IMG/VR virus record: IMGVR_UViG_3300042387_000725
Span: 25,156 to 89,155 of that record
DNA from: a virus
Strand: one strand, 5' to 3'
Length of the DNA stretch: 64,000 nt
A program made the translations under genes and the position numbers. The notes under the pieces are model-generated. The model did not search any database. It had not been told where the DNA came from and was given only the letters and a program-made list of their open reading frames with translations. Positions 10,177 through 61,699 of the stretch are shown piece by piece (positions within the stretch are counted from its first letter, which is position 1; each line of letters begins with the position of its first letter).

Positions 10177-11163
10177 CTATAAAACTCCAGGACGAACTAT
10201 GTTGTTTACATACTTAGACAAAATCTTGTCTACAATAATGTTTCCAGTACCTTCCATCATTCTCTTGTCATATTCAATCTTAAACTGATCTGTACTATAG
10301 TTCTTAACATATCTCTTGTAATAGTCTAATTTTCCACATTTAATGTCATCAATTAAAAGTGCTGTTGCATCTTGAATATCAATAGGTACCACTGGATATC
10401 CAACCTCTAGCAAAAATACATAGTCTGCTCCTGAAGGAAATCCAACCCCTGGAGTTATTGTTTGAGTATTTCCACTGTCTTCTGTGTCAAATATTCCATA
10501 GGAGTCTGAACTACCTAGAGGAATTCTAAGTGGGCTTCTCTCTGCTCTATTAATTGAATCTATTGCTGTTACTGGATCTTTTGTTATTGCTGACTTATCA
10601 GTAGTTATAATATAGTTGTATTCCCCAAGTATTGGGCCATCAGGATTTGCTATGTCATAAACTAGTTTTGAATTTTCATATGCTCTAACAATTTTATGTG
10701 TTCTATCCCAAAGAGGTATGTAGTCTGTTTGTTGTCCAACAACCTCTAAAAATTTTCTAGAATAATAAAAACCACCAACAATTGAATCAATAATTGCTCT
10801 AGCTAAAGATTCATGTTGTGTATATTCTTTTATTTCTGTAGCACTAGTTCCAAGTGTATTTGGATTAACGTATGGTCTTTCAATCTGTAGGTTATCTTCA
10901 ACAACAATGTTTCCACGATCTGCTAATACATTTCCACTTTCCATCAAATCTTCATATATCTTTACAGAGTATGACTTATCATATTTAACAAAATCTTCTC
11001 CAAGAGAATATACTATCTTGGCATTAGAGTTAGAGGTTACATACTCAACTAACTCTGACTGTTCTAGAACGTCATCAATAACTAGTATGTATCCTGTGTT
11101 AGCCTCTGGGACATTATATGTAACAGAAAGGGGATATGGTGGAAGACGAAGAATTACTGACAT
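10177..11163 (-). CDS. Neck / head-tail adaptor protein
   Basis: A 328-residue protein between the 117-aa HeH-like protein and the stopper-like gene. The N-terminal part looks globular. The last ~70 residues (helical DATALLIDDIKCGKLDYYKRYVK, then GTGNIIVDKILSKYVN) resemble head-tail adaptor proteins that end with a stretch for portal docking. It begins at ATG 11163, which overlaps the upstream stop. Longer than a usual gp6-like adaptor, so it may fuse an extra N-terminal domain. Confidence 0.5.
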   Translation of the reverse strand: MSVILRLPPYPLSVTYNVPEANTGYILVIDDVLEQSELVEYVTSNSNAKIVYSLGEDFVKYDKSYSVKIYEDLMESGNVLADRGNIVVEDNLQIERPYVNPNTLGTSATEIKEYTQHESLARAIIDSIVGGFYYSRKFLEVVGQQTDYIPLWDRTHKIVRAYENSKLVYDIANPDGPILGEYNYIITTDKSAITKDPVTAIDSINRAERSPLRIPLGSSDSYGIFDTEDSGNTQTITPGVGFPSGADYVFLLEVGYPVVPIDIQDATALLIDDIKCGKLDYYKRYVKNYSTDQFKIEYDKRMMEGTGNIIVDKILSKYVNNIVRPGVL

Positions 11164-11516
11164 TATTGTTTACCGTAGTATGAGGCTACTTCTTCAGGTG
11201 GTGCTATTCTGACCAACCTGTGGGATAACCACTTTTCCGATGCCTCCTTTGAGACGATGTTATATCCTACCTTTAAAGCCCCTAGATTATCCATGTGTAG
11301 GTTTCTATCTGAATATAGGGCTACTTTATCTGTCAAGTCACTTGACTTGCCTGCTTTTTCTACTACCTCTTTTGGTTTTGGTGGAATCCAACTAGCCAAA
11401 ATCTCTAAAATCTCAAGTTTAGTATTTGCTTCAAATAGTTCAATATTATTTTTCTTTGCATATGCTTTAAGTGCCATGACAGTTTTGCCTGATAATTCTT
11501 CTATTGTTAGAGTCAT
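11163..11516 (-). CDS. Small head protein with HeH/SAP-like motif
   Basis: A 117-residue protein. Residues 8-42 (KTVMALKAYAKKNNIEL...TKLEILEILASW) match the helix-extended-loop-helix (SAP/HeH/LEM-like) pattern found in many phage proteins next to the capsid gene. The rest is a small basic C-terminal domain. It has its own TATAAT box and a GGATAGGAG ribosome site, and lies right after the capsid gene terminator. Likely a head-tail joining or capsid-associated protein. Confidence 0.55.
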   Translation of the reverse strand: MTLTIEELSGKTVMALKAYAKKNNIELFEANTKLEILEILASWIPPKPKEVVEKAGKSSDLTDKVALYSDRNLHMDNLGALKVGYNIVSKEASEKWLSHRLVRIAPPEEVASYYGKQ

Positions 11517-22493: not shown

Positions 22494-23228
22494 TTACATA
22501 CTCTGATTTTTATTAATGTCCATATTGTTATGAATCCAATGGCCAGGTATCATATACTTAACCCCAGATTTTACAATATGGGCTGTATGAAAATACGGTG
22601 GAAATGCTGGAAATATAATAACACTATTTTCTTTTGGCTTTAGCCCAAAATCAATTGCTTTATTTTCAACAGATATATCATAGTCTAAATCTACAGCTGG
22701 TGCTGATCCTTTAGAAAAACCGTCAGCACTAGTCCATCCTCCATCATAATCCTTTAACTGGAAAGATATTTCTCCGCCTTCACAGTCATCATTTAGATAC
22801 ATAACTAGAGAGTATCTTAAAGTTTTGTCTCCATCTAGTTGGTCAAAATGTGCACCCATTCCCATTCCAGTGTTGTATTTCTTTATATTAAAGGTTGGAA
22901 AAAGTCTTGGCTCATCAAAATCACCCAATGAAGAAGCATAGTCCTTACATACATTGTACATTGTAGTCATGATAGCGTCATATATATATTTGCTTTTTTC
23001 CGCTACCTCACCAGTAAGGTTATTTATCGCATTGATGTCAAAAGTTTTTGTCTCTCCATAAATAAAAGTTTTATCGTTAGAAGAAGTCCAGGGATTCCAA
23101 ACGTTTACCCCTGACTCTGTGTATTGCTCAAGAGTATCTAACTCTTTCCATACTTTTTTAAAAGTATCAAAGTCTTCAATAGCATCAGTGTAGTAGTATA
23201 CTTTTGGGTCTAGTTTTTCTTTATTCAT
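22494..23228 (-). CDS. 2OG-Fe(II) oxygenase, P4H-type (1)
   Basis: A 244-residue dioxygenase. The HFD iron motif (MGMGAHFDQLDGD) is followed by SLVMYLNDDCEGGEISF, the P4Hc signature. The distal FHTAHIVKSGVKY supplies the third His ligand and a Lys for 2-oxoglutarate. A ~30-residue insertion, YDGGWTSADGFSKGSAPAVD, lies between the strands and is absent from the paralogs. The protein abuts the SDR gene. Target unknown. Confidence 0.88.
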   Translation of the reverse strand: MNKEKLDPKVYYYTDAIEDFDTFKKVWKELDTLEQYTESGVNVWNPWTSSNDKTFIYGETKTFDINAINNLTGEVAEKSKYIYDAIMTTMYNVCKDYASSLGDFDEPRLFPTFNIKKYNTGMGMGAHFDQLDGDKTLRYSLVMYLNDDCEGGEISFQLKDYDGGWTSADGFSKGSAPAVDLDYDISVENKAIDFGLKPKENSVIIFPAFPPYFHTAHIVKSGVKYMIPGHWIHNNMDINKNQSM

Positions 23229-23239
23229 ATTTTTCTCCT

Positions 23240-23899
23240 CTAGTACTTGTTATTAACGTAAAAATCTTTTACTTTTATAAAGGCTGTAATGACATGTCTT
23301 ATTGGACCATCCCCCACATGCTTTACTCCATGCTCATGTTCTGGGTCACCTGGAAAAACAAGCAATGACCCTGGTTTTGGTCTTAACGTGATGTCAAAAT
23401 TTTTAAAGAAAAGTTCTCCATCAGAATAATTTTCATTAATATATAGGATTGCAGCATATCTAATAGATGGGTCTGTGTCTTGATCCACATGAGATTTTAA
23501 TTCAACACCAGTTTGCATTCTTTGTATAGTTCCCATGCCACCTACTATTAAATTTTCATCTGCTCTTTTAACTAAATCTTGTATTCTTTCTTGAAGTACT
23601 CTAGCTATATCATATTGCTGAATTTCAAGAATTTTATCATCCCATCCTTTAGTAACTTCATATTTGCCTTCATCAACTAGCTTTTGAACATCCGTTGTAC
23701 CAAATTTTTCTAAACAAAACTCAGCCAAACTTTTCTGATAAGCAACGTGCCACTCTGTTTCTTCTGTGGAGTTAATTATGTCTAATACTTGATGCAGTTC
23801 TTCTTTAGAGATAAAATCTTCTACTAGCAAAATGCTATCTGAAATATCTACAACGCTATAGTTGTCCTCAATAAGTTCTTTTCTTAAGAAACTACTCAT
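23240..23899 (-). CDS. 2OG-Fe(II) oxygenase, P4H-type (2)
   Basis: A 219-residue dioxygenase. LKSHVDQDTDPSIRYAAI carries the HxD pair. ILYINENYSDGELFFKNF is the P4Hc strand, and HEHGVKHVGDGPIRHV gives the distal His and an Arg for 2-oxoglutarate. It overlaps the upstream oxygenase by 8 nt. Arg instead of the Lys of several siblings suggests a distinct sub-lineage. Confidence 0.88.
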   Translation of the reverse strand: MSSFLRKELIEDNYSVVDISDSILLVEDFISKEELHQVLDIINSTEETEWHVAYQKSLAEFCLEKFGTTDVQKLVDEGKYEVTKGWDDKILEIQQYDIARVLQERIQDLVKRADENLIVGGMGTIQRMQTGVELKSHVDQDTDPSIRYAAILYINENYSDGELFFKNFDITLRPKPGSLLVFPGDPEHEHGVKHVGDGPIRHVITAFIKVKDFYVNNKY

Positions 23900-24650
23900 T
23901 GCGATTTAACTCCTCTATCTTATACTTATTACCATCTTTATCTATTTTATAGCCCTTTTTAATAAGGTCCTGCCACTCTGCTCTTTCAATCTCTTGCTGT
24001 TCTCTTGTTGCTTTCATTTCTGCTGCCCAAGCATCTCTTAGCTCTTGCGGATAAGCATCTTCTTCTCTGTCATCCCAGAATGAACCTATGGTGTATCTTA
24101 CTCCGCTTTCAATTAAAGTAACTTCATGCATATTGTTAAAGCCACCGTCAAAGACAGCAAGCATTCCAACTTTTGGCTCAATTTCTATTTCTTGTCCTGG
24201 GAATCTTAATAGTCCACCTTTAAAATTATCATTTAGATAAAGGAACCCAGCATATCTACTTCTTGTAAATGCGCCAGAGTTTCCTTCAGCATCAGTATTG
24301 TCTGAGTGTACTCTTGCGTATGCTCCAGGTTCCCATTTTTGTGTGTGATATCCAATTTTACAAATTGTTTTTGGATCAAGATCGTGAACTGAAGCAATTG
24401 CTTCTGGCATTGTTTTTTCAATGTCTGAAAAAATAGTTGGAGATAATCCAGCATCAAGTACCTCTTGATCGTTATCTTGTGGAAGAACAGAAGAATATGA
24501 TTCATAAAATGAAATAGGCATCCATGACAACTTTCCACCTTCTGCTTGAGCATCAAGTGCCTGAATCATTTTTTTACAATCTTCATCACTAATAAAGTTT
24601 TCATAAATAACAATATCTTTTGTGATTCTTTTTTTATTGTTTAGATTCAT
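23892..24650 (-). CDS. 2OG-Fe(II) oxygenase, P4H-type (3)
   Basis: A 252-residue dioxygenase. HSD in YARVHSDNTD, GFLYLNDNFKGGLLRF, NNMHEVTLIESGVRY with the distal His and Arg. A charged C-terminal helix of ~50 residues (RDAWAAEMKATREQQEIERAEW and onward) follows the catalytic core and is not found in the siblings; it may mediate complex formation. Overlaps both neighbours by a few nt. Confidence 0.88.
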   Translation of the reverse strand: MNLNNKKRITKDIVIYENFISDEDCKKMIQALDAQAEGGKLSWMPISFYESYSSVLPQDNDQEVLDAGLSPTIFSDIEKTMPEAIASVHDLDPKTICKIGYHTQKWEPGAYARVHSDNTDAEGNSGAFTRSRYAGFLYLNDNFKGGLLRFPGQEIEIEPKVGMLAVFDGGFNNMHEVTLIESGVRYTIGSFWDDREEDAYPQELRDAWAAEMKATREQQEIERAEWQDLIKKGYKIDKDGNKYKIEELNRNE

Positions 24651-25513
24651 TTTATCCTTCTTTCTTTGTCAGCGCTAATTTTATTTGGATTATCTAGTCT
24701 AAATTCTTCTATAATAGATGGTTGCATTTCTGCCCAAACTTCTTTACCAAACTCTTTTTCTTTTTCAAACCACTCAGGACTGCCTACAGAATATTTCATC
24801 CAATACATTCTAGAAAGATACTTGTTTGCTCCCGTTGCAGGCATTACGCCATGTATGTAAACAGATCCATTTTTTGTTAATACATCTGGGTGACCTGATG
24901 GGAAAATCAAAAAATCTCCAGCCTTTGGCTTATACATGTATGCTTCACCATCAACAATAAAGTCTATCTCTCCACCTTCATAGTCGTCATTAAAATAACA
25001 AAGAGCAGTTATTGCAAACTTATACCCTGGACTTGTTATTGGCTCACGAATATAATCAGAATGATAGGTCATTGCTAGTGGGTCTTCAATATCTGTTTTA
25101 TATCTTGCTATAGATGGTCCAGTCATTTGCCATTCTTCCATAAGTTGACCATTATTTGCTAATACCGTTTTTGTTTTGTCAAGTTCTATACCATTACGTA
25201 AAGCATAGTCTTCAGTAGCTAAATAAAAATTTTTAAAAAGTTCAAGGATTGCAAGCTTTTGAAGTTCTTGTTTTTCTGTTTTTGTTTCTATTTCCTCAAT
25301 TAAGTCAATTCTTAAATTAGATTGGTAACCCTTAAACATAGGACTTAAATATTCTCCGAAATGAGCCCATTGAGTCCATGGACTAAAAATACCATCTTCT
25401 TCTCCTGTAGAATTTTTTAACAACTCATAGGTTTGTTCTATATTCTTAAAAAGATTTTTATATACAAATATTTTAGGATATATTTCAATGGCTTCTAAAG
25501 TATTTTGACTCAT
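24647..25513 (-). CDS. 2OG-Fe(II) oxygenase, P4H-type (4)
   Basis: A 288-residue dioxygenase. ATG at 25513 is chosen because AGGAGA precedes it and it overlaps the upstream TGA; an upstream start would add 16 residues. HSD in MTYHSDYIRE, CYFNDDYEGGEIDF, and IHGVMPATGANKY with the distal His and Lys. It is the longest of the group, with an N-terminal helical domain of ~110 residues. Overlaps its neighbour by 4 nt. Confidence 0.88.
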   Translation of the reverse strand: MSQNTLEAIEIYPKIFVYKNLFKNIEQTYELLKNSTGEEDGIFSPWTQWAHFGEYLSPMFKGYQSNLRIDLIEEIETKTEKQELQKLAILELFKNFYLATEDYALRNGIELDKTKTVLANNGQLMEEWQMTGPSIARYKTDIEDPLAMTYHSDYIREPITSPGYKFAITALCYFNDDYEGGEIDFIVDGEAYMYKPKAGDFLIFPSGHPDVLTKNGSVYIHGVMPATGANKYLSRMYWMKYSVGSPEWFEKEKEFGKEVWAEMQPSIIEEFRLDNPNKISADKERRIK

Positions 25514-26190
25514 GGCTTTCTGTCTCCTGTATGTGCCGTAATTTCCCAAAAAAATGGACATGTAAATCTTAATCCACTTTTTATTTCACTTACTCCATGG
25601 ATATAGTTTTTATCTCCTGGGAAAAAATAAGCAGCACCTTTCTTAGGTTTAAATTGCACACCTTGCAGAGGAAAATATAATTCTCCCCCTTCATAATCAT
25701 CATTTAAATAAAACAAACTTGAAAGATCATAGTTTGGAAAATCATTTGGAAGTCCAGCATCTGGTCCTTCATGAAGTTCTTTGTCTGCATGAGGCTTTTG
25801 AAATTGCCCTGGAAGCCATTTAACAATTGTAGTTCCAGTTGGTACAACTTCTACCTTATAAAAATCTTCAACAATTGGTTTTAGTCTTTGAAATAAACCA
25901 GCTATAACTGGGGCAATTCTAGGATCATTTTTGTCAAGACTAGGAGTTGTTGCTACTCTATCTTTCCAGTAGTCTGAGTCATATACAACAGTGCCGTTTT
26001 CATTTACATGGCTTTGTGTTACATCCCAGATAGTTAGAGATTTTGCTGCTTTTTCTAAAAACTCAATCTCTTCTTCAGTCATGAAGTTTTCTAGCTCTAC
26101 AATCATGTCTTTGCTGTCTCCAAACCATCCAGATGGGGTTATTGACGGAGATCTTTTTACTACTGTATATTCATCTTTGTTTTGTTCCAT
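25510..26190 (-). CDS. 2OG-Fe(II) oxygenase, P4H-type (5)
   Basis: A 226-residue dioxygenase. HAD in FQKPHADKEL, SLFYLNDDYEGGELYFP, then YIHGVSEIKSGLRF with the distal His and Arg. TATAAT lies 6 nt before ATG (26197-26202), so the gene can be transcribed as a leaderless mRNA, and this would also feed the four genes downstream. Confidence 0.88.
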   Translation of the reverse strand: MEQNKDEYTVVKRSPSITPSGWFGDSKDMIVELENFMTEEEIEFLEKAAKSLTIWDVTQSHVNENGTVVYDSDYWKDRVATTPSLDKNDPRIAPVIAGLFQRLKPIVEDFYKVEVVPTGTTIVKWLPGQFQKPHADKELHEGPDAGLPNDFPNYDLSSLFYLNDDYEGGELYFPLQGVQFKPKKGAAYFFPGDKNYIHGVSEIKSGLRFTCPFFWEITAHTGDRKP

Positions 26191-26192
26191 TT

Positions 26193-26915
26193 TTATATTA
26201 TATCATCCTTCGTATTATCTATTACTCCAAGCTTTATGGTTTTAGCCTCATGGCTACCCAAAGATTCACCTTTTTCATTTACTGCATTTCTATACCAGTC
26301 TGTCCATTTTCCTACCTTGTTAATTTCTTGTGCTGCATCTCCATAAGATTTATTTGCTGCTTGTTTTTTTCCATCTGGATCCGTGTATTTGTTAATTTGA
26401 ATAACAGTATTATTTAAGCTTGTTAAAGAGATAGGAATTATTGTTGCAAGTGGGGTTCCTGCCTTTATTGTTGTAATTTTATTTGCTGCTTTTGCTTTTG
26501 CTTTAATTGCTAATGGCAGAGGATTGTCATAAAAAGATGTACTTATAACGTTAGACATAGTTTCAAACTCGTCGCTATAATAATTGACTGGATTTATTGT
26601 AATAATGCTAAAATTTTCTTCTGTTCTAAAGTATAGACCAGTATCAAAACTTATTGATGACTGACCTCTTCCAGAATAAGCTCTATCTGGTCCAAAAACT
26701 TTTACATTGTCTGGACGCTCACTATTGATCCCATCCCACTCAAAACATACATCTTGTTTACAAAAAATACTCCAACCAATTGAATTTGCCTGTGTTACAG
26801 GAAAACAATGGTATGCATGTTTTTCTGATGAGACATCCATCCAGTCTCTCTTAATAGACATAGGAGAAATATCAAATAAAGAGTGTGAGTCTTTTTCAAT
26901 TATAACATTTATCAT
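26193..26915 (-). CDS. DUF6065-like protein (1)
   Basis: A 240-residue protein. The pattern RDWMDVSSEKHAYHCFPV, ANSIGW, then GLYFRTEENFSIITINPVN and IKAGTPLATIIPI matches the phage/bacterial family annotated DUF6065, whose function is unknown. The start overlaps the upstream oxygenase stop as TAATG. It resembles the product of 28593-29360 in its C-terminal half, so the cluster carries two members. It could be a sugar- or peptide-binding cupin-like fold, but this is a guess. Confidence 0.6.
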   Translation of the reverse strand: MINVIIEKDSHSLFDISPMSIKRDWMDVSSEKHAYHCFPVTQANSIGWSIFCKQDVCFEWDGINSERPDNVKVFGPDRAYSGRGQSSISFDTGLYFRTEENFSIITINPVNYYSDEFETMSNVISTSFYDNPLPLAIKAKAKAANKITTIKAGTPLATIIPISLTSLNNTVIQINKYTDPDGKKQAANKSYGDAAQEINKVGKWTDWYRNAVNEKGESLGSHEAKTIKLGVIDNTKDDII

Positions 26916-27571
26916 TAGTCTGCCTCTGCGCTATACATTTCTGGAGTATGAAACTTTTTACTGTAATCAAGCATTGTAACAATAGAGTACTTGAGTCCAG
27001 ATGTTACTGGCATTGCCTGATGAGGATACATGTAGTTTGATGGAAACACAAAAAGATCTCCTGCTTCTGGCTTAACCTTTAGGTTTTGAAGTCTAAAGAA
27101 TAACTCTCCACCCTCATAGTCATCATTTGGATATCCTACAAGTGATACAGTACAGTTATATGAGAATCCATGATCATGGTGTTCCATAAAGTGCTGTCCT
27201 GGACCATACTTAATAAAATTAAATGCTTCCCAATATTTTAGGTTATGAATATTGTGCATCTTGCAATAGTCTTCTACTACTGGAGACTTAACATCGTATA
27301 GATCTTGCCATAGTGACTGAAGGTTTAAGCTTGTTTCACTTGTATCATTTTCAATGTCTGTTTTCTTGAACTTAAAATCATTGCAATCTCTGTAGTCTGG
27401 CATTAATTGTTTATATCCAACATAGGCAGGCTGCCAACTGTATCCAGTCGTATCTCCTACTGGCTTAAGGTTTTCTTCAATTCTTTTAATTACTTCAATT
27501 TCTTTTTTAATTACACCTTTGTAACAGAATATTCCATTTCCAAGATTTTGTTTTTCTGTCCACGTTTGCAT
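26915..27571 (-). CDS. 2OG-Fe(II) oxygenase, P4H-type (6)
   Basis: A 218-residue dioxygenase. HHD in FMEHHDHGFSYN, GYPNDDYEGGELFFRL and PHQAMPVTSGLKY with the distal His and Lys. It is close to the oxygenase at 29360-30088: both have KYWEAFNFIKYG / VYYEAFNFVKYE, CTVS and VFPSNY, so the pair arose by duplication. GGGAG ribosome site before ATG. Confidence 0.88.
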   Translation of the reverse strand: MQTWTEKQNLGNGIFCYKGVIKKEIEVIKRIEENLKPVGDTTGYSWQPAYVGYKQLMPDYRDCNDFKFKKTDIENDTSETSLNLQSLWQDLYDVKSPVVEDYCKMHNIHNLKYWEAFNFIKYGPGQHFMEHHDHGFSYNCTVSLVGYPNDDYEGGELFFRLQNLKVKPEAGDLFVFPSNYMYPHQAMPVTSGLKYSIVTMLDYSKKFHTPEMYSAEAD

Positions 27572-27645
27572 TTATTGCTCCCTCTTTATATTTTTAGACT
27601 ATATTGCTATCTAACAGTTTACCATATTTATAGCAATTATATTTA

Positions 27646-28581
27646 TTATTCCTTCCAAACTGCATGAACACAGCTTGTGCAAAAATTTTCATAAGAATTT
27701 TTAATCATATTTTTGCGTTCTTGGCTTTCCCATATTTCCTTTATTGGCTTTTCATTAATATTAGCAAATATTGTTTCAAACTCATAGTCATTGCAGCATA
27801 AGAATACATCTCCATTAGCATTTATATGTATCCAATCTTCAGTCCTACTTCCCATATTATTGCAGCCAATAACCTTGCCCTTTTTATTTATTTTATTTTT
27901 CATTATTTTACGAGTATCTAAATTTCCTGCTCTGTCAACTAAAGATATATTTGGAAATATTCTAATTTCTGGGAATGACTCTTTCATTTGCTTAAGAGCA
28001 ATTGCTGTATCTCCAGTATTATCATCTAAATTTATTTCAGGAGCATTTTCCAATAACTCTGTATATCTAAGTGAACTTTGGTTAATTCCATTAACTTGCA
28101 TTGAAATTTTTTCAACAGGAAAATTATCTATAGCGTATCTAATGTTGTCCATAACTCTTTGGTGCATTTTTTCAGGTTTACCTGTCATTTTTGACCAGGT
28201 AGCAGCATCAGCGGAAGGTGTATTAAAGTGGATTAAATCAACTACATCACTATATTCTTTGATAATGTCCATCTTTTCTTTTGTTAATGGAGAACCATTT
28301 GTTAGTACAACTGTTCTAACTCCATGCTCTCTAAACAAATCAAGCATTTCTTTAAAATGCTCATAAAGCAAAACTTCGTTATAGTGTGCTGTATAAATAA
28401 AAGAAAACTGTGGATCTACAAAATCTCCAATACCAGCCTTTAGCTGTTCAAGAATAGACCTAATTGTTTCAATAGACATGGTTTTTCTACCAATTGCTGG
28501 GTTTCCATCATATGCTACAGGACAAAACCAACAACCAAGATTACACAAACCATTAGGATCTAATTGAACTAACTTTATCAC
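27646..28581 (-). CDS. Radical SAM enzyme with SPASM-like C-terminus
   Basis: A 311-residue protein. Cys 13, 17 and 20 in NGLCNLGCWFC form the CxxxCxxC [4Fe-4S] site for S-adenosylmethionine cleavage. The C-terminus has GCNNMG, FLCCND and ENFCTSCVHAVW, giving a SPASM-type auxiliary cluster set as in peptide-maturing radical SAM enzymes. Start codon is GTG at 28581. Placement among oxygenases suggests modification of a peptide or sugar. No precursor peptide is recognised nearby. Confidence 0.85.
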   Translation of the reverse strand: MIKLVQLDPNGLCNLGCWFCPVAYDGNPAIGRKTMSIETIRSILEQLKAGIGDFVDPQFSFIYTAHYNEVLLYEHFKEMLDLFREHGVRTVVLTNGSPLTKEKMDIIKEYSDVVDLIHFNTPSADAATWSKMTGKPEKMHQRVMDNIRYAIDNFPVEKISMQVNGINQSSLRYTELLENAPEINLDDNTGDTAIALKQMKESFPEIRIFPNISLVDRAGNLDTRKIMKNKINKKGKVIGCNNMGSRTEDWIHINANGDVFLCCNDYEFETIFANINEKPIKEIWESQERKNMIKNSYENFCTSCVHAVWKE

Positions 28582-28592
28582 ATTGTTACCAT

Positions 28593-29360
28593 CTATCTAT
28601 ATTCTCTTCTTGACCATACTTTATTTTTATATATACCGCCATCTGGTTGACGATAAAATTTTGAATTATCAACCATATTACCATATATCTCTGATTGATT
28701 CAAAATCTCTATATTATGATCCCAGTTTTCTCTTTTAAATGGCAAAATCTGAAGATACGGAGTTCCTGCTGGAATTGTTCCTTCCCAACCATCTGCAATA
28801 AAAAATGGAAAACTTCCAAGAAGATGAACTTTATCTGAATCAACAACACCAGTGGTATTTAAAAATGGAAGATCAAATCTATTCATTGGTGTCATGAATA
28901 GTGCACTATATCCTTCTGGTAGTTTTAATCCCCAGTCAGCAGACCATGCAAAATGATACTTGTAGTATCCATGCGGATGTTCAAACTGTGGCATAGGAGG
29001 TCTCTGAGTACAAAAGTCTTGATACTTAGAGTCTTCAATCTTTACATTAATTATACCCTGCGAGTTTTTAAAAAATGTTAAGTCACAAGGGGTTTTAAAA
29101 ACATATCCAGTTGAAAATGCATCCATGATTGCAGGACATGCTTTCCATGTTGGAATCTTTCCATAATCATCAGTAGTTCCCTCTTTTGGAAATGGACAAA
29201 CCTCTTTTGGCGCTTTATAGTATTCCCCATTTGGCATCTTTGCAAATCTATCTGCATCTTTGTACCAGTCTGGAATTTCTTTTTGTGTTGGAACAGGAAC
29301 AGAAATACTTTCTTTATTTAGCCATGGCCTATAAGATTTAAATGTAGCTATTAGTGACAC
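28593..29360 (-). CDS. DUF6065-like protein (2)
   Basis: A 255-residue protein starting at GTG 29360, overlapping the upstream TAG. Segments YKYHFAWSADWGLKLPEGYSALFMTPMNRFDLPF and IPAGTPYLQILPFKRENW align by eye with the GW, NPVN and AGTPLATIIPI blocks of the DUF6065-like protein at 26193-26915. Function unknown. I infer a shared fold, probably a beta-barrel. Confidence 0.5.
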   Translation of the reverse strand: MSLIATFKSYRPWLNKESISVPVPTQKEIPDWYKDADRFAKMPNGEYYKAPKEVCPFPKEGTTDDYGKIPTWKACPAIMDAFSTGYVFKTPCDLTFFKNSQGIINVKIEDSKYQDFCTQRPPMPQFEHPHGYYKYHFAWSADWGLKLPEGYSALFMTPMNRFDLPFLNTTGVVDSDKVHLLGSFPFFIADGWEGTIPAGTPYLQILPFKRENWDHNIEILNQSEIYGNMVDNSKFYRQPDGGIYKNKVWSRREYR

Positions 29361-30088
29361 TACTTATGACCTAGCTCGTTAATATCTGTCATTACCACAA
29401 CACAGTACTTTGTACCTGACTTCATCGGAAGAGATGCATGCTCATAAATATAGTTTGAAGGAAATACTGCTATATCTCCAACTCTTGGTGTATGAACATA
29501 GTTGTCTAGTCTTGGGAACTTTATTTCTCCACCTTCGTAATCATCATTAATATAGATTACTGCAGATACTGTGCAATTGTAGGCTGGACCATGATCAGCA
29601 TGAATATTAAAGTGTGTTCCTTCTCCTTCATACTTTACAAAATTAAATGCTTCATAATAAACAACATTGATTCCCCAGTATGCAGCGTAATCATCAATGC
29701 AGTACTTTAATTTTTGATAGATCTCTTCATGAAGATCTAAAAGTTCTGAGTTTGTTTCATCTCTTGGTCCTAAGTTTTCCTGCTTGTACTTAAAGTCTAC
29801 ACAGTCTCTAGCCTTCTTGATAGGAGTTGTAGAATTAGTTACCTGAGCTTCTGACCATTTATGTTTTTTGTCACCAGACAGATTTGACTCAAGAATATTT
29901 ATGTATCTATCAGCATCTGCTTTAGAAAATGTATCATGATATACATGCAGGCCTAATCCAAGATTCTCAGCGACAATGCCATCTTTGAGCTGTCGTGGAG
30001 GGATTCTGTTTGATGCTGTTTCTGATCTATCTTTAGTAAACCAGTAGTTTGAGTTTTCATCTTGTACTTGTAAGTTATTATATTCCAT
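29360..30088 (-). CDS. 2OG-Fe(II) oxygenase, P4H-type (7)
   Basis: A 242-residue dioxygenase. HAD in FNIHADHGPAYN, VIYINDDYEGGEIKFPRL and YEHASLPMKSGTKY with the distal His and Lys. Paralog of 26915-27571. The start lies inside the end of the upstream glycosyltransferase gene (11-nt overlap), tying oxygenation and glycosyl transfer to one transcript. Confidence 0.88.
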   Translation of the reverse strand: MEYNNLQVQDENSNYWFTKDRSETASNRIPPRQLKDGIVAENLGLGLHVYHDTFSKADADRYINILESNLSGDKKHKWSEAQVTNSTTPIKKARDCVDFKYKQENLGPRDETNSELLDLHEEIYQKLKYCIDDYAAYWGINVVYYEAFNFVKYEGEGTHFNIHADHGPAYNCTVSAVIYINDDYEGGEIKFPRLDNYVHTPRVGDIAVFPSNYIYEHASLPMKSGTKYCVVVMTDINELGHK

Positions 30089-31246: not shown

Positions 31247-32095
31247 TTATGAATTGATGTTTACAACCCTCATTATACTGTGCTTAAACCTCGCAGATGA
31301 GTATCCAAATCTTGGGAAGAACGGGAAGAATGGAGGGAAGAACGGTGGGAAGAACGGTGGGAAGAACGGTGGGAAGAACGGGAAGAAAGGTGGGAAGAAC
31401 GGTGGGAAGAACGGGAAGAACGGGAAGAAAGGTGGGAAAAATGGAGGGAAGAACGGGAAGAATGGTGGGAAAAATGGAGGGAAAAATGGTGGAGTTGTTG
31501 TAATAGAACCAGAAGCATCTGAAGTTTCAGAATTTCCATTAGCATTTGTTGCATAAACTGTGTATGTCTGAGAAGTGCCACCTTCTTGAGCTACTGCAGC
31601 GCTTAGAGTTGATCCTGATACTGTTGCTCCCTTAGAATCAGAAGATGCCCAAGTATATCCAGTAATCGCAGAACCACCATTTGCTGGGGCAGACCAAGAA
31701 ACGTTATCTTGATTAACCTGTGTAGTTACAGTTGGTGCTGAAGGTTTAGCTGGAACTGTTGTTGCAGTAATTGAAGCAGATTCTGACGAAGCAGTAGATG
31801 TTCCTGCAGCATTTGTTGCTGTTACTGTAAATGTATAGGCAGTATTAGATTGAAGACCAGTTACAGTGACTGGAGAAGTTGCACCAGTACCTGTAAAACC
31901 TCCAGGAGATGAGGTAGCTGTAAAAGATGTGGCTGCAGGAGAAAGTGCTGGTAGAGAGAAAGAAACAGTTGCTGCACCATTATTAAATGCTCGTGCAGTT
32001 CCAACATTTGTTGCTGTAACATCTGTTGGAGCTAATGGTTCTAAGAAGTCATTTGATGCCTGAGACTTCTTACCCGCTTTTTTCCCTGCTGCCAT
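31247..32095 (-). CDS. Fn3-repeat fibre protein with FFPP tail
   Basis: A 282-residue protein. A basic start (MAAGKKAGKKSQ), then two fibronectin-type-III-like domains (~residues 20-115 and 116-205, with PTDVTATNVG, VTGLQSNTAYTFTVTATN, WSAPANGGSAITGYTW). Then ~60 residues of PPFFPPFFP-type repeat. The end, RFGYSSARFKHSI, looks like the start of an S74 domain and is followed by a stop. Predicted virion fibre or host-attachment protein. Good AGGAG before ATG. Confidence 0.75.
   Translation of the reverse strand: MAAGKKAGKKSQASNDFLEPLAPTDVTATNVGTARAFNNGAATVSFSLPALSPAATSFTATSSPGGFTGTGATSPVTVTGLQSNTAYTFTVTATNAAGTSTASSESASITATTVPAKPSAPTVTTQVNQDNVSWSAPANGGSAITGYTWASSDSKGATVSGSTLSAAVAQEGGTSQTYTVYATNANGNSETSDASGSITTTPPFFPPFFPPFFPFFPPFFPPFFPFFPFFPPFFPPFFPFFPPFFPPFFPPFFPPFFPFFPRFGYSSARFKHSIMRVVNINS
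31313..31493 (-). repeat. Low-complexity DNA encoding FFPP repeats (copy A)
   Basis: Around 180 bp of near-perfect 9- and 12-bp units built from TTC, TTC, CCA and CCN codons on the minus strand. Units differ mainly by omission of one Pro or one Phe codon pair, so slippage can change length without frameshift. Confidence 0.9.
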
Positions 32096-37745: not shown

Positions 37746-38804
37746 TTAGTATCCTCCATATGAGAATCTTGGGAAGAATGGGAAGAACGGCGGAAAGAAT
37801 GGAGGGAAGAATGGAGGGAAGAACGGCGGAAAGAATGGAGGGAAGAACGGTGGGAAAAATGGTGGGAAGAATGGAAAGAACGGAAAGAATGGTGGGAAAA
37901 ATGGTGAGGTAACCACGAGATTAGATGGATCTGAAGTTGGAGAATTTCCAATTGCATTTGTAGCATAAACGGTATATGTTTGTGAAGTATTAACTTCTTG
38001 ATCAACTTCAACTGATAGCGTTGTTCCAGAAACTGTACCAGTCTTACCGTCAGAAGATGCCCAGGTGTAACCAGTAATTGTAGATCCACCGTTTGCTGGA
38101 GCAATCCAAGAAACGATATCTTTAGATGATCCTGTTGTTACTGTTGGTGCTGCTGGTTTAGCTGGAACGGATGTGTCTGTAACATAAGGTTCGCTTGCAG
38201 AACTAAACAATCCAGATCCATTGGCATTATTTGCACAAATAGTAAAAGTATAAGATGTTCCTCCATTAAATGCACCAGTGGCAGTTAATGGACTATTTAT
38301 TCCTGCCTGAGTTGTTATTGATACAGAAGGAGATGAAGCAATGGTATAACCTGTTATTTCGCTTCCTCCAGATTCTGGGGGAGTAAATGTTAAGCTTACT
38401 ACTGTATTGCTAACTTTAGTTGGTACACCAATGGTTGGAGTTCCTGGAACAGTAGTTGCTAGAATTGAATTAGAACTTATACTTGGTAGATAAGAACTTC
38501 CAAGTGAGCTATTTCCTTTTGATGTAAAAGTATATGAAGTATTAGACTGTAATCCTGTAATTGTTAATGGTGAAGAACCTGTTGCTGTAAATGATCCTGG
38601 ATCTGATGTTACCGTATAGCTTGTAGCTGGACCACCTGTTCCTGGAGCAGCTAAAGAAATAGTAGCAGATCCATCATTAAATGGACGATTTGTACCAACA
38701 TTTGTTGCAGTTGGAACTGCTCCGTCTGGAAGATCATTTATTGGGGTAGTGTACTGTATCTTTCTTAATAATAAGCTTAGTAAAGATACTTTTGAAATTG
38801 TCAT
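37746..38804 (-). CDS. Fn3-repeat fibre protein with FFPP tail (2)
   Basis: A 352-residue protein. Three Fn3-like domains (~residues 30-115, 120-210, 211-300). Then ~45 residues of PFFPFFPPFFPP-type repeat and the end RFSYGGY. Homologous to 31247-32095 in its last Fn3 domain and FFPP tail. No S74 remnant follows. Predicted fibre or adhesin. Confidence 0.75.
   Translation of the reverse strand: MTISKVSLLSLLLRKIQYTTPINDLPDGAVPTATNVGTNRPFNDGSATISLAAPGTGGPATSYTVTSDPGSFTATGSSPLTITGLQSNTSYTFTSKGNSSLGSSYLPSISSNSILATTVPGTPTIGVPTKVSNTVVSLTFTPPESGGSEITGYTIASSPSVSITTQAGINSPLTATGAFNGGTSYTFTICANNANGSGLFSSASEPYVTDTSVPAKPAAPTVTTGSSKDIVSWIAPANGGSTITGYTWASSDGKTGTVSGTTLSVEVDQEVNTSQTYTVYATNAIGNSPTSDPSNLVVTSPFFPPFFPFFPFFPPFFPPFFPPFFPPFFPPFFPPFFPPFFPFFPRFSYGGY
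37771..37905 (-). repeat. Low-complexity DNA encoding FFPP repeats (copy B)
   Basis: Around 135 bp of TTC/TTC/CCN/CCN codon units on the minus strand, of the same type as copy A six kilobases away. CCG and CCA wobble variation is present, so it was not generated by a single recent expansion. Confidence 0.9.
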
Positions 38805-41009: not shown

Positions 41010-41726
41010 TCAAGAAACTGATATATGTAAAGATTTTAACCTTACAGCGCTTGGGCTATCTGTTCTTATCTGTGGTATTCCACCAAAAATTTGAGACTGT
41101 TTGTCTGTTACTGCAAAATTTTGTTCTATAGAAAAATTATAAACATATTGATATTTTAACATTCCAACATAAGTGGTAGGTGTATAGATAATGTCTGACA
41201 ATAGGGTTCTCATCCAAACTTCAACTCCATTTGAAAAGGGCTCTATTTCTATATCATAGCGAACCGATATCATTGCGCCAATATTTAATGTTTTAAAATT
41301 AATTCTTTTAGCTTCTTGATTCCATAAAGAAATTGAGCCTTTTGGAATATAATCTTCTATTGTGTTTTTACCAATACCATCAATAAATACATTGACCCAT
41401 CCATCTTCTCCTTGATCTGCACCAAGTCTAAAAACTTTTTCTTTTAGACTATCGTAAAATGCCCAACCAATACTTTGCTCTGAAGGAGATAAAACATCTC
41501 TACCATTTTTTCCATCTTTTCCATTTTTACCTGGATCTCCTTTATCACCTTTAGGACCAGCAGGTCCTTCTTTTCCAGGCGATCCAGAATCTCCTTTAGG
41601 ACCTCTTTCTCCTTGAGGTCCAGGGACTGGAAGAAAACTTAATGCATTAGCTTCAAAGCTTTCAACATTTTTTGCATAGTTGTTTTTATTGCTAAATGGT
41701 GAATCCATGTTCTTAGAAATAGACAT
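41010..41726 (-). CDS. Collagen-like fibre protein
   Basis: A 238-residue protein. Residues ~35-75 are GxY repeats: GPQGERGPKGDSGSPGKEG and PAGPKGDKGDPGKNG, then KDGKNGRD. A globular beta C-terminus of ~160 residues follows (VWMRTLLSDIIYTPTTYVG). It should form a trimeric triple-helix shaft. Several Pro residues occupy the Y-position-like slot of the triplets, making them formal candidates for prolyl hydroxylation. Confidence 0.8.
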   Translation of the reverse strand: MSISKNMDSPFSNKNNYAKNVESFEANALSFLPVPGPQGERGPKGDSGSPGKEGPAGPKGDKGDPGKNGKDGKNGRDVLSPSEQSIGWAFYDSLKEKVFRLGADQGEDGWVNVFIDGIGKNTIEDYIPKGSISLWNQEAKRINFKTLNIGAMISVRYDIEIEPFSNGVEVWMRTLLSDIIYTPTTYVGMLKYQYVYNFSIEQNFAVTDKQSQIFGGIPQIRTDSPSAVRLKSLHISVS

Positions 41727-43893: not shown

Positions 43894-44592
43894 CTAATTA
43901 AAAGTATTTTTTCTTGGAAATAAGAAAGCAAATGATGTAGCGACATACTTTGTTCCGCTGACAATTGGAGTTGTTCCATGTGTGAATTCTTTACTTGCAC
44001 CATGAATTACTAGATCGCCAGATTGTGGACGATATGTAATATTTTTTTCTGGATAGTAAAGCTCTCCGCCTTCAAAGTTATCATTGATATACAATACCAA
44101 ACCCCAATCAGATTCTATTGGGCAATATTCACTTGAGTCGTGATGTGGAGGAAATACATCTCCAATCTCATACTTCATAATGTTCATAATTGGTAGAGGA
44201 CTGTACAAACCATCAAATAGAGGATTAAAGTCTATGTCGGAAATGCTAAGTCCTTTTCCAACAATATCAATAAGCCTATTGTCCATCATTTTAGGATTTG
44301 GATTTGTTTCATCTACCCTAAATGTGTTATTTTTATTTTCTTTTAAAAAGTCCATAACTTCTTTTACTTGATCTTGCGAGATAAAATCGCTAATAACGTA
44401 TATACCAGGAATTACTTCTTCAAGGTTTGGATGCTTAGGCACTGTTCGTATTTTGTAATCCCAGTCCTTTTTAAATTTTTCATTTATCTTAAGGTGAGTG
44501 TTGTCGCAAAAAGGATAGTTAGCAGAATAGCCACATATGCATTCTGTTTTATCTGTTTTCTTATATCCACCATCAACTTCTGAATTACTCAT
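43894..44592 (-). CDS. CDGSH iron-sulfur domain fused to 2OG-Fe(II) oxygenase (8)
   Basis: A 232-residue protein starting at ATG 44592; an upstream in-frame extension exists but overlaps a better gene in another frame. Residues 18-33, CICGYSANYPFCDNTH, match the CDGSH [2Fe-2S] motif (C-x-C-x2-S-x3-P-x-C-D-x-T-H). Residues ~60-232 form a P4Hc oxygenase: HHD in FPPHHDSSEY, YINDNFEGGELYYP, and FTHGTTPIVSGTKY. A redox cluster on the same chain could feed the iron centre or sense redox state. I do not know a described fusion of this kind. Confidence 0.8.
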   Translation of the reverse strand: MSNSEVDGGYKKTDKTECICGYSANYPFCDNTHLKINEKFKKDWDYKIRTVPKHPNLEEVIPGIYVISDFISQDQVKEVMDFLKENKNNTFRVDETNPNPKMMDNRLIDIVGKGLSISDIDFNPLFDGLYSPLPIMNIMKYEIGDVFPPHHDSSEYCPIESDWGLVLYINDNFEGGELYYPEKNITYRPQSGDLVIHGASKEFTHGTTPIVSGTKYVATSFAFLFPRKNTFN

Positions 44593-44722
44593 GTTTATTA
44601 CTTGGCTTTTCTGTATCTTCCCAGAAAGCAGCTCTACCCATGTTGTCTGTTGGTATGATTGGCTTTGATTCAAAGTGGAACTCTTCGTCCCAGGCATTTT
44701 CTAAATTGTCTAATATTCCCAT
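44585..44722 (-). CDS. 45-residue acidic protein upstream of the fusion oxygenase
   Basis: Starts MGILDNLENAWDEEFHFESK and ends EDTEKPSNKHE. ATG at 44722 lies 7 nt after TATAAT (44730-44735), so leaderless. Its stop overlaps the start of the CDGSH-oxygenase gene (ATGAGTAA), hence the two are coupled. Acidic with an aromatic DEEFHF motif; no known family. Confidence 0.6.
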   Translation of the reverse strand: MGILDNLENAWDEEFHFESKPIIPTDNMGRAAFWEDTEKPSNKHE

Positions 44723-44729
44723 ACCGTCC

Positions 44730-44735
44730 ATTATA
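44730..44735 (-). promoter_or_regulatory. -10 box for leaderless transcript
   Basis: Leftward TATAAT with 7 nt to the ATG of the 45-aa gene. No convincing -35 element is seen. Confidence 0.6.
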
Positions 44736-59269: not shown

Positions 59270-59953
59270 ATGATACCTAAGATAATCTGGCAAACCCATG
59301 AATGGGAATATGAGGACTTGCCATATGATTTTAAGATGGCTTCTTTGACTTGGAAAAACCTAAACCCAGATTGGCAGCATAAGTACGTAAGCAAGAAGGA
59401 TAGAGAAAAACATATAGCAGAATACGACAAAAATCTTTTAAGGTTTTACAATAGCTGTGATGGCATAACTCAGTCAGATATCTGGAGATATGTAGTTCTA
59501 TATCTTCATGGTGGTGTTTATGTTGATATGGATACCCTGGCCTGTGGAAAACTAACTGAGATTCTACCTGAGTTTGATAAGGGCAAAGATTTTTTCTGCA
59601 TGCCTTATTTTTATATTGATGGCAAAAAATCAGTAGTAACTGGTGCACATGCTGCACCTAGAAATTCACACATTGCTAATAAACTTGCTAGAGATATCTG
59701 TTTAACCAAAGACGAGAAAGCCCTTTCAGATGATTTTATGTTTGATCAAGAGGAAAAGCTTCGCTTTGGTTGGAACCTTATAAGCGATTGCATACTAAAA
59801 TATGAAGATAGTATAGGATTTAACTTTACAGATCAAGTTATTAGACACTGGCCATCTGGACAAGAGTTTAAATATAACCCAGGCATTATGGTATTTTTTG
59901 ATTTTAATTGGTACTCATATGAAGATTTATCAAGTCTGCACGGTTGGAAATAA
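59270..59953 (+). CDS. GT32-type glycosyltransferase
   Basis: A 227-residue protein. MIPKIIWQTHEW at the N-terminus, then SDIWRYVVLYLHGGVYVDMDT near residues 70-91 with the DxD metal motif, match OCH1/capsular polysaccharide-type glycosyltransferases that use a nucleotide-sugar. The 3' end overlaps the convergent 2OG oxygenase gene by 24 nt. It may act on a phage glycoprotein or on a host glycan. Confidence 0.85.
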   Translation: MIPKIIWQTHEWEYEDLPYDFKMASLTWKNLNPDWQHKYVSKKDREKHIAEYDKNLLRFYNSCDGITQSDIWRYVVLYLHGGVYVDMDTLACGKLTEILPEFDKGKDFFCMPYFYIDGKKSVVTGAHAAPRNSHIANKLARDICLTKDEKALSDDFMFDQEEKLRFGWNLISDCILKYEDSIGFNFTDQVIRHWPSGQEFKYNPGIMVFFDFNWYSYEDLSSLHGWK

Positions 59954-60673
59954 ATCACTAAAATCAATCTGACTTTCTGCCATTAGATTACTAACCACAT
60001 TTGTATAGCTTTCACAAATAGCGTGTGAATATCTGAACTTACTGTGTATATAAAAAAATATAAAGTATTTATTTCCAGATGTTACTGTATGACCTGTATG
60101 TACCTCATCAGTTGAAAAGAATACAACGCTTCCAGCCTTTGGAGATATGCTGTATCCAAGGTCATTAAACTCCAATTTTCCGCCCTCATAATCGTCATTT
60201 AAATAGACTAAAGCAGTCCAGTCATGAGGGTGTATACCACCGTTATGGTCATTATCAGTATGTGGGCCAAAAGTCTCTGAGGTCTTATACTTCTTTATTG
60301 TATAATTTTTTGTTATTATATCTGGCACCTCATTGTTTGTTATTTCAGCCCATACCTTTAAGACCTCTTTATATGGCTCATCAATCATTTTTATAATTTC
60401 ATAGCTATTTAAGTGATCTTCATCATAGTCTTTATCAACATGTTTTAGTGGCCAGCGATTATAGTTAATATAATAATCCCAGTTTATTTTTTTAACCCAC
60501 CCTTTATTGTGTGTTATTACCCAAGTGCCATTTTCAGCATGACCCTCTAGCCATTCATCCCACTTAGGAATAACAGTATTAGTATTATTTTCAATAGCCT
60601 CAACAAAGTCTTTAGCTAAAGGAAAAGCATCTTCTATGTATATAACATTACCTTTTAGTATATTGACCTTCAT
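59930..60673 (-). CDS. 2OG-Fe(II) oxygenase, P4H-type (9)
   Basis: A 247-residue dioxygenase, convergent to the glycosyltransferase. HTD in FGPHTDNDHN, VYLNDDYEGGKLEFND and HTGHTVTSGNKY with the distal His and Lys. N-terminal ~120 residues are helical. TATAAT (60681-60686) is 7 nt before ATG: leaderless. It is the only leftward gene between 45.5 kb and the right edge. Confidence 0.88.
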   Translation of the reverse strand: MKVNILKGNVIYIEDAFPLAKDFVEAIENNTNTVIPKWDEWLEGHAENGTWVITHNKGWVKKINWDYYINYNRWPLKHVDKDYDEDHLNSYEIIKMIDEPYKEVLKVWAEITNNEVPDIITKNYTIKKYKTSETFGPHTDNDHNGGIHPHDWTALVYLNDDYEGGKLEFNDLGYSISPKAGSVVFFSTDEVHTGHTVTSGNKYFIFFYIHSKFRYSHAICESYTNVVSNLMAESQIDFSDLFPTVQT

Positions 60674-61024: not shown

Positions 61025-61699
61025 ATGGAAGATAAGAAAGTTTTTATAGATAAAGATTTATGGTACATACCAAATTTTTTGACTGAAGAAGAGTCTGCTG
61101 CTTTAAAAAAATATTGCGATGATCCAAATGAATGGTACATCACCTCTAGATCACCATCTATACGAAATAAATTTATTGGTGTAAAAACTGATACCCATCC
61201 ACAAGGAACTGTGTGCCCTACAAGAGGAATTGACTTAAGCCTAAGTGCAGTTTTCCCAACAGATAAAAACTTAAGGTATTATGATATATTGTTTTGGGGT
61301 GCTGGAGGATTACTAGAAAGACTATCAGATGTTCTGCCTAAAGATTTAGTAAAAAATACAACCCTTCAATCTTTTTGGCCATTTGAAGAAGGCGTTGATA
61401 AATATGGTGCATTTAGATGGCATCATGAAAAGGGTAATCCAGGTCAAAAAGATGATGGACTAACAGGAGCTTGGTCTTTATATTTAAATGATGATTTTGA
61501 AGGTGGTGAGTTACTATTTAAGTATAAGCCAGAAATTAGAATCAAACCTAGTCCTGGTATGCTTGTAAATATTCCAATAACAAAAGAGTTTACGCACAAA
61601 GTCACCCCTGTAAAATCTGGCATAAGACATACACTATACGGCATCTGCTATGATGATCAATATGCTGATCGCACAGTATCCAGTGCAGATAATTGCTAA
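61025..61699 (+). CDS. 2OG-Fe(II) oxygenase, P4H-type (10), HxE variant
   Basis: A 224-residue dioxygenase. Iron motif is HHE (FRWHHEKGN) in place of HxD, then YLNDDFEGGELLFKYKP and FTHKVTPVKSGIRH with the distal His and Arg. TATTAT lies 7 nt before ATG, so leaderless. Rightward, so expressed with the early arm rather than with the cluster of seven. Confidence 0.85.
   Translation: MEDKKVFIDKDLWYIPNFLTEEESAALKKYCDDPNEWYITSRSPSIRNKFIGVKTDTHPQGTVCPTRGIDLSLSAVFPTDKNLRYYDILFWGAGGLLERLSDVLPKDLVKNTTLQSFWPFEEGVDKYGAFRWHHEKGNPGQKDDGLTGAWSLYLNDDFEGGELLFKYKPEIRIKPSPGMLVNIPITKEFTHKVTPVKSGIRHTLYGICYDDQYADRTVSSADNC

Follow-up and report, generated by a model that had tools for sequence, protein, structure and literature searches.

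What does a CDGSH motif do on a phage oxygenase? The question is raised by gene P0001 (43894..44592, minus strand), which lies in the window, the whole 64,000-nt stretch analyzed here, taken from a virus record of 89,155 bases. The ORF and its translation, together with two orthologs (L009 and L010), define a 232-aa fusion of a CDGSH module to a 2OG oxygenase. An upstream 48-aa ORF (44585..44731, minus strand), evident in the sequence and from comparison with L009 and L010, runs into the fusion gene, its stop codon overlapping the ATG (CATGAGTAA). This overlap, together with an ATG at the corresponding position in both L009 and L010, supports the assigned start and rules out a wrong start codon. 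The capsid protein of the phage is closest to those of Streptomyces phages (44%), so its host is likely, judging by sequence, to be actinobacterial. No second CDGSH motif was found in the 25 kb of the record outside the window.

Residues 18–33 of P0001 (44494..44541, minus strand) read CICGYSANYPFCDNTH and fit the pattern CxCxx(S/T)xxxPxCD-x-(S/T/A)-H, with Asn for Gly. The match to the CDGSH signature includes the four presumed ligands (C18, C20, C29 and H33) and the Ser, Pro, Asp and Thr positions, and the protein has all the residues by which the 17-residue motif is defined (three Cys and one His, Ser/Thr, Pro, Asp). Pfam zf-CDGSH matched residues 1–56 alone at 30.0 bits (E = 6.5e-7), above its cut-off of 29.5, and the full protein at 27.1 bits, just under it; only the C-terminal 18 of the 48 profile positions are covered. 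The reading frame, its coordinates and the motif are as originally predicted, and the N-terminus (residues 1–56) passes a profile search of the kind that had been suggested as a check.

The original prediction was to fall if homologs lacked the ligands. Two close homologs from IMG/VR, L009 (90% identity) and L010 (83%), were retrieved with peptide patterns that left the motif out, and both retain its ligands and structural residues. Between the window and L010, the motif codons show three synonymous and no nonsynonymous differences, versus two synonymous and 15 nonsynonymous for residues 1–17. Residues 1–17 diverge between P0001 and its close homologs, but every ligand is kept. These codon counts indicate that the motif is under purifying selection. 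A chance motif is ruled out by the codon-level conservation and the two homologs.

The remainder of the protein is a P4H-type 2OG/Fe(II) oxygenase domain (residues 57–228; 43909..44424, minus strand), as had been predicted. Pfam 2OG-FeII_Oxy_3 matched P0001 with 33.3 bits (E = 9.6e-8), the oxygenase core was modeled by AF2 with pLDDT above 90, and the nearest PDB structure in Foldseek was the Bacillus P4H 5hv4 (E = 2.2e-11). In a 25-protein alignment, the HxD iron ligands H150 and D152 (44137..44145, minus strand) and the distal iron ligand H205 (43978..43980, minus strand) are invariant. All oxygenases aligned have Lys or Arg at the position of K215 (43948..43950, minus strand), whose expected role, judging by known P4H enzymes, is to hold 2OG by its carboxylate. 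The HxD...H ligands and the basic 2OG ligand are all present in a double-stranded beta-helix; the active site is intact. A charged linker (residues 34–56; 44425..44493, minus strand) separates module and enzyme. It has low confidence in both AF2 models and is unconserved across modules; the low-confidence model fits a mobile tether but is no proof of one.

Several neighboring genes are worth recording. A collagen-like protein with GPxGxx repeats (41010-41726, minus strand) is encoded ∼2.2 kb from P0001, and another lies near the ortholog (L009:3743-4465), so that in both phages it shares a gene module with the CDGSH–P4H fusion; P4H-type enzymes act on collagen-like sequences in other systems. 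Two FN3-like proteins (31247-32095 and 37746-38804, both minus strand) end in long PPFFPPFFPFF repeats, and these could be substrates of prolyl-hydroxylase-like enzymes. The phage record has at least nine 2OG-oxygenase-like ORFs (22494-30088, minus strand; 59930-60673, minus strand; 61025-61699, plus strand), several nearly back to back, adjoining genes for an SDR and a radical SAM enzyme as well as glycosyltransferase-like genes.

How much of a CDGSH domain does the phage protein carry? CDGSH proteins comprise seven types (Lin et al. 2011, PMC3174974). In all solved structures, the 17-residue motif comes after an N-strand that contributes a hydrophobic residue to a beta-sandwich, a strand with the P-motif (GP-phi-x-phi) covers the cluster, and two modules make up a dimer or pseudo-dimer (PMC3174974). 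The phage module shares with CISD/NEET proteins the spacing C-x-C-x8-C-x3-H and the conserved Ser, Pro and Asp, but it is without N-strand, P-motif and beta-sandwich, and Asn often replaces Gly. The residue preceding the first Cys is hydrophobic in 40/40 cellular CDGSH proteins versus 0/30 fused modules, where it is polar instead (Glu in P0001, Arg in L009 and Gln in L010). Among 54 aligned modules, only C18, C20, G21, S23, P27, C29 and H33 are conserved, D30 nearly so, with neither conserved flanks nor a P-motif. An AF2 model of residues 1–60 contained no strand of three or more residues near the motif, and neither this model nor the full-length one gave a confident structure for the module. 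Of the 'CDGSH domain' that had been proposed, then, the Fe–S-binding loop is there, but the beta-sandwich common to all solved CDGSH structures is not.

As to ancestry, a profile of the module matched CDGSH chains in the PDB (best E = 2.3e-10), and zf-CDGSH matched 54/54 modules. Template-free AF2 modeling of residues 1–60 gave a pLDDT of ∼78 at residues 21–30, and the 40 structures retrieved with this model by Foldseek were all NEET structures, each a weak match (E from 1.6 to 9; Foldseek also uses sequence). By these profile and model comparisons the module is clearly CDGSH-derived, and its binding of a [2Fe-2S] cluster is probable but not established. Because only the Fe–S-binding loop is present and the beta-sandwich is missing, cluster binding is not to be assumed.

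Zinc-binding families were considered as well. SEC-C (C-x-C-x8-C-[CH]) matched neither the 54 modules (E up to 0.1) nor P0001 (E up to 10), and no other competing zinc family had a profile match in the 54 modules. One of the two main rivals to an iron-related role is nonetheless that the module works as a terminal zinc-binding tag, like SEC-C of SecA, recruiting the oxygenase to a protein substrate or the virion with no part in redox chemistry. Such a tag would account for a module that is very short, sits at either terminus, has a charged tail and lacks the fold that shelters [2Fe-2S] in known CDGSH proteins; the module also occurs on small Sm/SH3-like phage proteins and as 24–70 aa proteins. 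However, the non-ligand Ser, Pro and Asp are conserved too, the CDGSH profile matches where SEC-C does not, and the module's partners in long proteins are, among matches listed, 2OG oxygenases only. We regard the zinc tag as unlikely, though it deserves to be taken seriously.

The choice of partner became clear from a survey of viruses. We scanned IMG/VR viral contigs with DNA patterns; the pattern demands the motif, so the counts are biased, and conservation was therefore tested by searches with the oxygenase only. Among the matches listed, a bare 16–17-residue CDGSH module is joined to seven groups of 2OG oxygenases. The ∼46 distinct viral CDGSH proteins of at least 200 aa (42 distinct complete proteins listed, three window-family members and the L032 protein) all fall, among matches listed, within these seven groups, with representatives of each group, not every member, checked for the assignment. 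N-terminal modules are found on P4H-type oxygenases (the window family; L103; L094/L110; L102/L114/L174 and others; L115/L207 and others) and on a JmjC/cupin-type oxygenase (L032, L206 and L208; JmjC_2). Outside the window family, the motif of N-terminal fusions starts at residue 4–7. In another 2OG group (L104, L135 and others), the module is C-terminal, with the motif at residue 249. This group has no significant Pfam oxygenase match; it aligns with the window oxygenase at 23% identity over residues 6–205 (E = 4e-10) and has HxD...H. Module and oxygenase must have been joined independently at least three times: at the N-terminus of P4H-type enzymes, at the N-terminus of the JmjC type, and at a C-terminus. 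What the original prediction could not see is that the window gene exemplifies an arrangement that recurs among viruses.

In the oxygenase-only searches, the exact motif was present in 39/39 complete members of the C-terminal family and, for a 291-aa family, in 15/15 members of a clade of 85–100% identity. Relatives of the 291-aa family at 40% identity or less are without the module, as are most viral homologs of these oxygenases. That so many viral oxygenases of the same families do without it might suggest that the module only aids folding or solubility, or is a relic of evolution, and takes no part in catalysis. We find this very improbable, given that oxygenases of different folds have acquired it, some at the N-terminus and others at the C-terminus, that every ligand is kept in the 39/39 and 15/15 complete ORFs, and that the window motif codons are under purifying selection.

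A 280-aa family occurs in three states: with the module fused (L367 and L368), with the module encoded by its own gene immediately upstream of the oxygenase (L371, L373 and L384), and as an oxygenase without a module. In L371 and L373, the module gene encodes 39 aa and has an ATGA overlap with the oxygenase gene. In L369, L370 and L372, it is instead a different oxygenase gene, 0.9–1.6 kb upstream, that carries the fused module. The module is also found as a standalone protein of 24–70 aa, often adjoining a 2OG gene. Among matches listed, 19/32 distinct sequences of standalone GRS-type modules lie within 300 bp of a 2OG gene on the same strand, versus 175/888 control small ORFs of the same loci (Fisher P = 1.7e-6, uncorrected for shared ancestry). 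For canonical NEET-like viral proteins the count is 0/9, likewise uncorrected for shared ancestry.

Small phage proteins with the module at the C-terminus were also seen, of 123 aa (L100, L117, L143 and L152), 112 aa (L111, L126 and L197) and 72–73 aa (L129, L158, L137, L191 and L192); one small module-bearing protein has a WYL_2/Sm-like SH3 barrel. A separate orphan phage family of 52–64 aa, MxCxCGFSTEYPxCNGTHK... (L023:7664-7846 and most of L029–L093), has CDGSH spacing from residue 3 and Asn for Asp (CNGTH), with a weak zf-CDGSH match and no PHROG match. The related phage contig L023 carries, at 10212-11463, genes resembling AhpC and AhpD of the peroxiredoxin system by sequence, an unusual redox cargo for a phage.

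Partners among long proteins that are, among matches listed, 2OG oxygenases only, attachment at either terminus and to different folds, and the fused or split gene arrangement all point to the oxygenase as what the module acts on, or works for. Fe(II) is the simplest requirement that these enzymes have in common. Our preferred reading, held tentatively and a little short of probable, is that P0001 is a P4H-type 2OG/Fe(II) oxygenase with a tethered 'mini-NEET' that serves its own iron. The module would be the CDGSH Fe–S-binding loop alone, tethered to the oxygenase by the charged linker, and would bind a labile 3Cys-1His [2Fe-2S] cluster, whose site a paired second module or the surface of the oxygenase might complete. 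Electrons from the cluster could restore Fe(II) when uncoupled turnover has left Fe(III), replacing ascorbate; electron supply was also a proposal of the original prediction. Alternatively, the cluster might be a local iron reserve that hands over iron rather than electrons. Both cluster binding and the transfer of electrons or iron are put forward here as what the motif and its partners suggest.

Several points speak against the mini-NEET reading. The cluster may be unstable or absent, because the N-strand, the P-motif, the hydrophobic residue before the first Cys and the beta-sandwich are missing. Coupled 2OG turnover requires no external electrons. Moreover, most viral homologs of these oxygenases work without a module, and the module also occurs on small phage proteins that are not oxygenases.

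The other main rival is a switch that responds to redox state, oxygen or nitric oxide, with the state of the [2Fe-2S] cluster turning the oxygenase on or off during infection; redox gating had likewise been proposed in the original prediction. Redox activity, lability and electron transfer are established for NEET clusters, and how readily these are lost depends on pH and redox state (PMC6006223, PMC3174974); strict retention of the ligands would suit a sensor of this kind. But a linker that is variable and modeled with low confidence, attachment at either end, and partners with unrelated oxygenase folds are unlike a docked allosteric switch, and we think a switch distinctly unlikely.

The mini-NEET reading extends to a broader proposal, which we consider possible but rather doubtful: the minimal 17-residue [2Fe-2S]-binding loop may be a portable cofactor cassette that viruses use for 2OG oxygenases, at either end, on different folds or as a separate mini-protein, and that, in the infected cell, holds the catalytic iron in its ferrous state or keeps the site loaded. 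What CDGSH proteins do at the molecular level is a matter of debate, and we know of no 2OG oxygenases described with built-in iron–sulfur modules. The recurrent joining in uncultivated viruses suggests that the motif serves such oxygenases. Fusion, again and again, to one enzyme superfamily gives this poorly understood motif a first concrete, testable partner, and raises the question of whether a mononuclear iron site receives electrons or iron from a cluster. If the proposal holds, the minimum size for a biological unit that binds [2Fe-2S] would be lowered, to below that of every solved CDGSH unit, and many small phage proteins now called 'hypothetical' would gain a suggested function.

The original prediction knew of no characterised protein with this architecture, and we too found it described neither in annotated phages nor in the open-access literature. 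With the window protein, its N-terminus, a family D protein, a family G protein and a standalone module as tblastn queries, no CDGSH–2OG fusion was detected in 50,697 annotated phage records; a literature search for CDGSH with phage or 2OG oxygenase returned no relevant open-access paper. A cellular origin of the fusion was rejected on a scan of 84,980 genomes, where none of 41 CDGSH loci was fused to a 2OG oxygenase, under a strict module-type pattern that could miss variants. Both halves belong to known families, and the module–2OG fusions are apparently an undescribed class.

Comparison with known systems places the fusion more precisely. CDGSH fusions described previously involve an FMN-binding glutamate synthase domain (type 5) or DUF1271 (type 7) (PMC3174974), whereas the phage partner is a 2OG oxygenase. 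The 2OG-Fe(II) oxygenases of T4-like cyanophages (PMC3037559; PHROG 61 and 2297) are likewise phage-encoded and present in multiple copies per genome, but have no CDGSH module by tblastn in annotated phages, and the window phage looks actinobacterial. Bacillus P4H (PDB 5hv4, 3itq and 5v7y) has the same beta-helix core, HxD...H and 2OG-binding Lys, at about 24% identity; these entries differ in being without a CDGSH module. In Rieske non-heme iron oxygenases, a His-ligated [2Fe-2S] module is coupled to a mononuclear iron oxygenase, with obligate electron input. Their folds are unrelated to those of P0001 and Rieske ligation is 2Cys-2His; we claim no homology, and the likeness is one of analogy, an iron–sulfur module set beside a mononuclear iron site.
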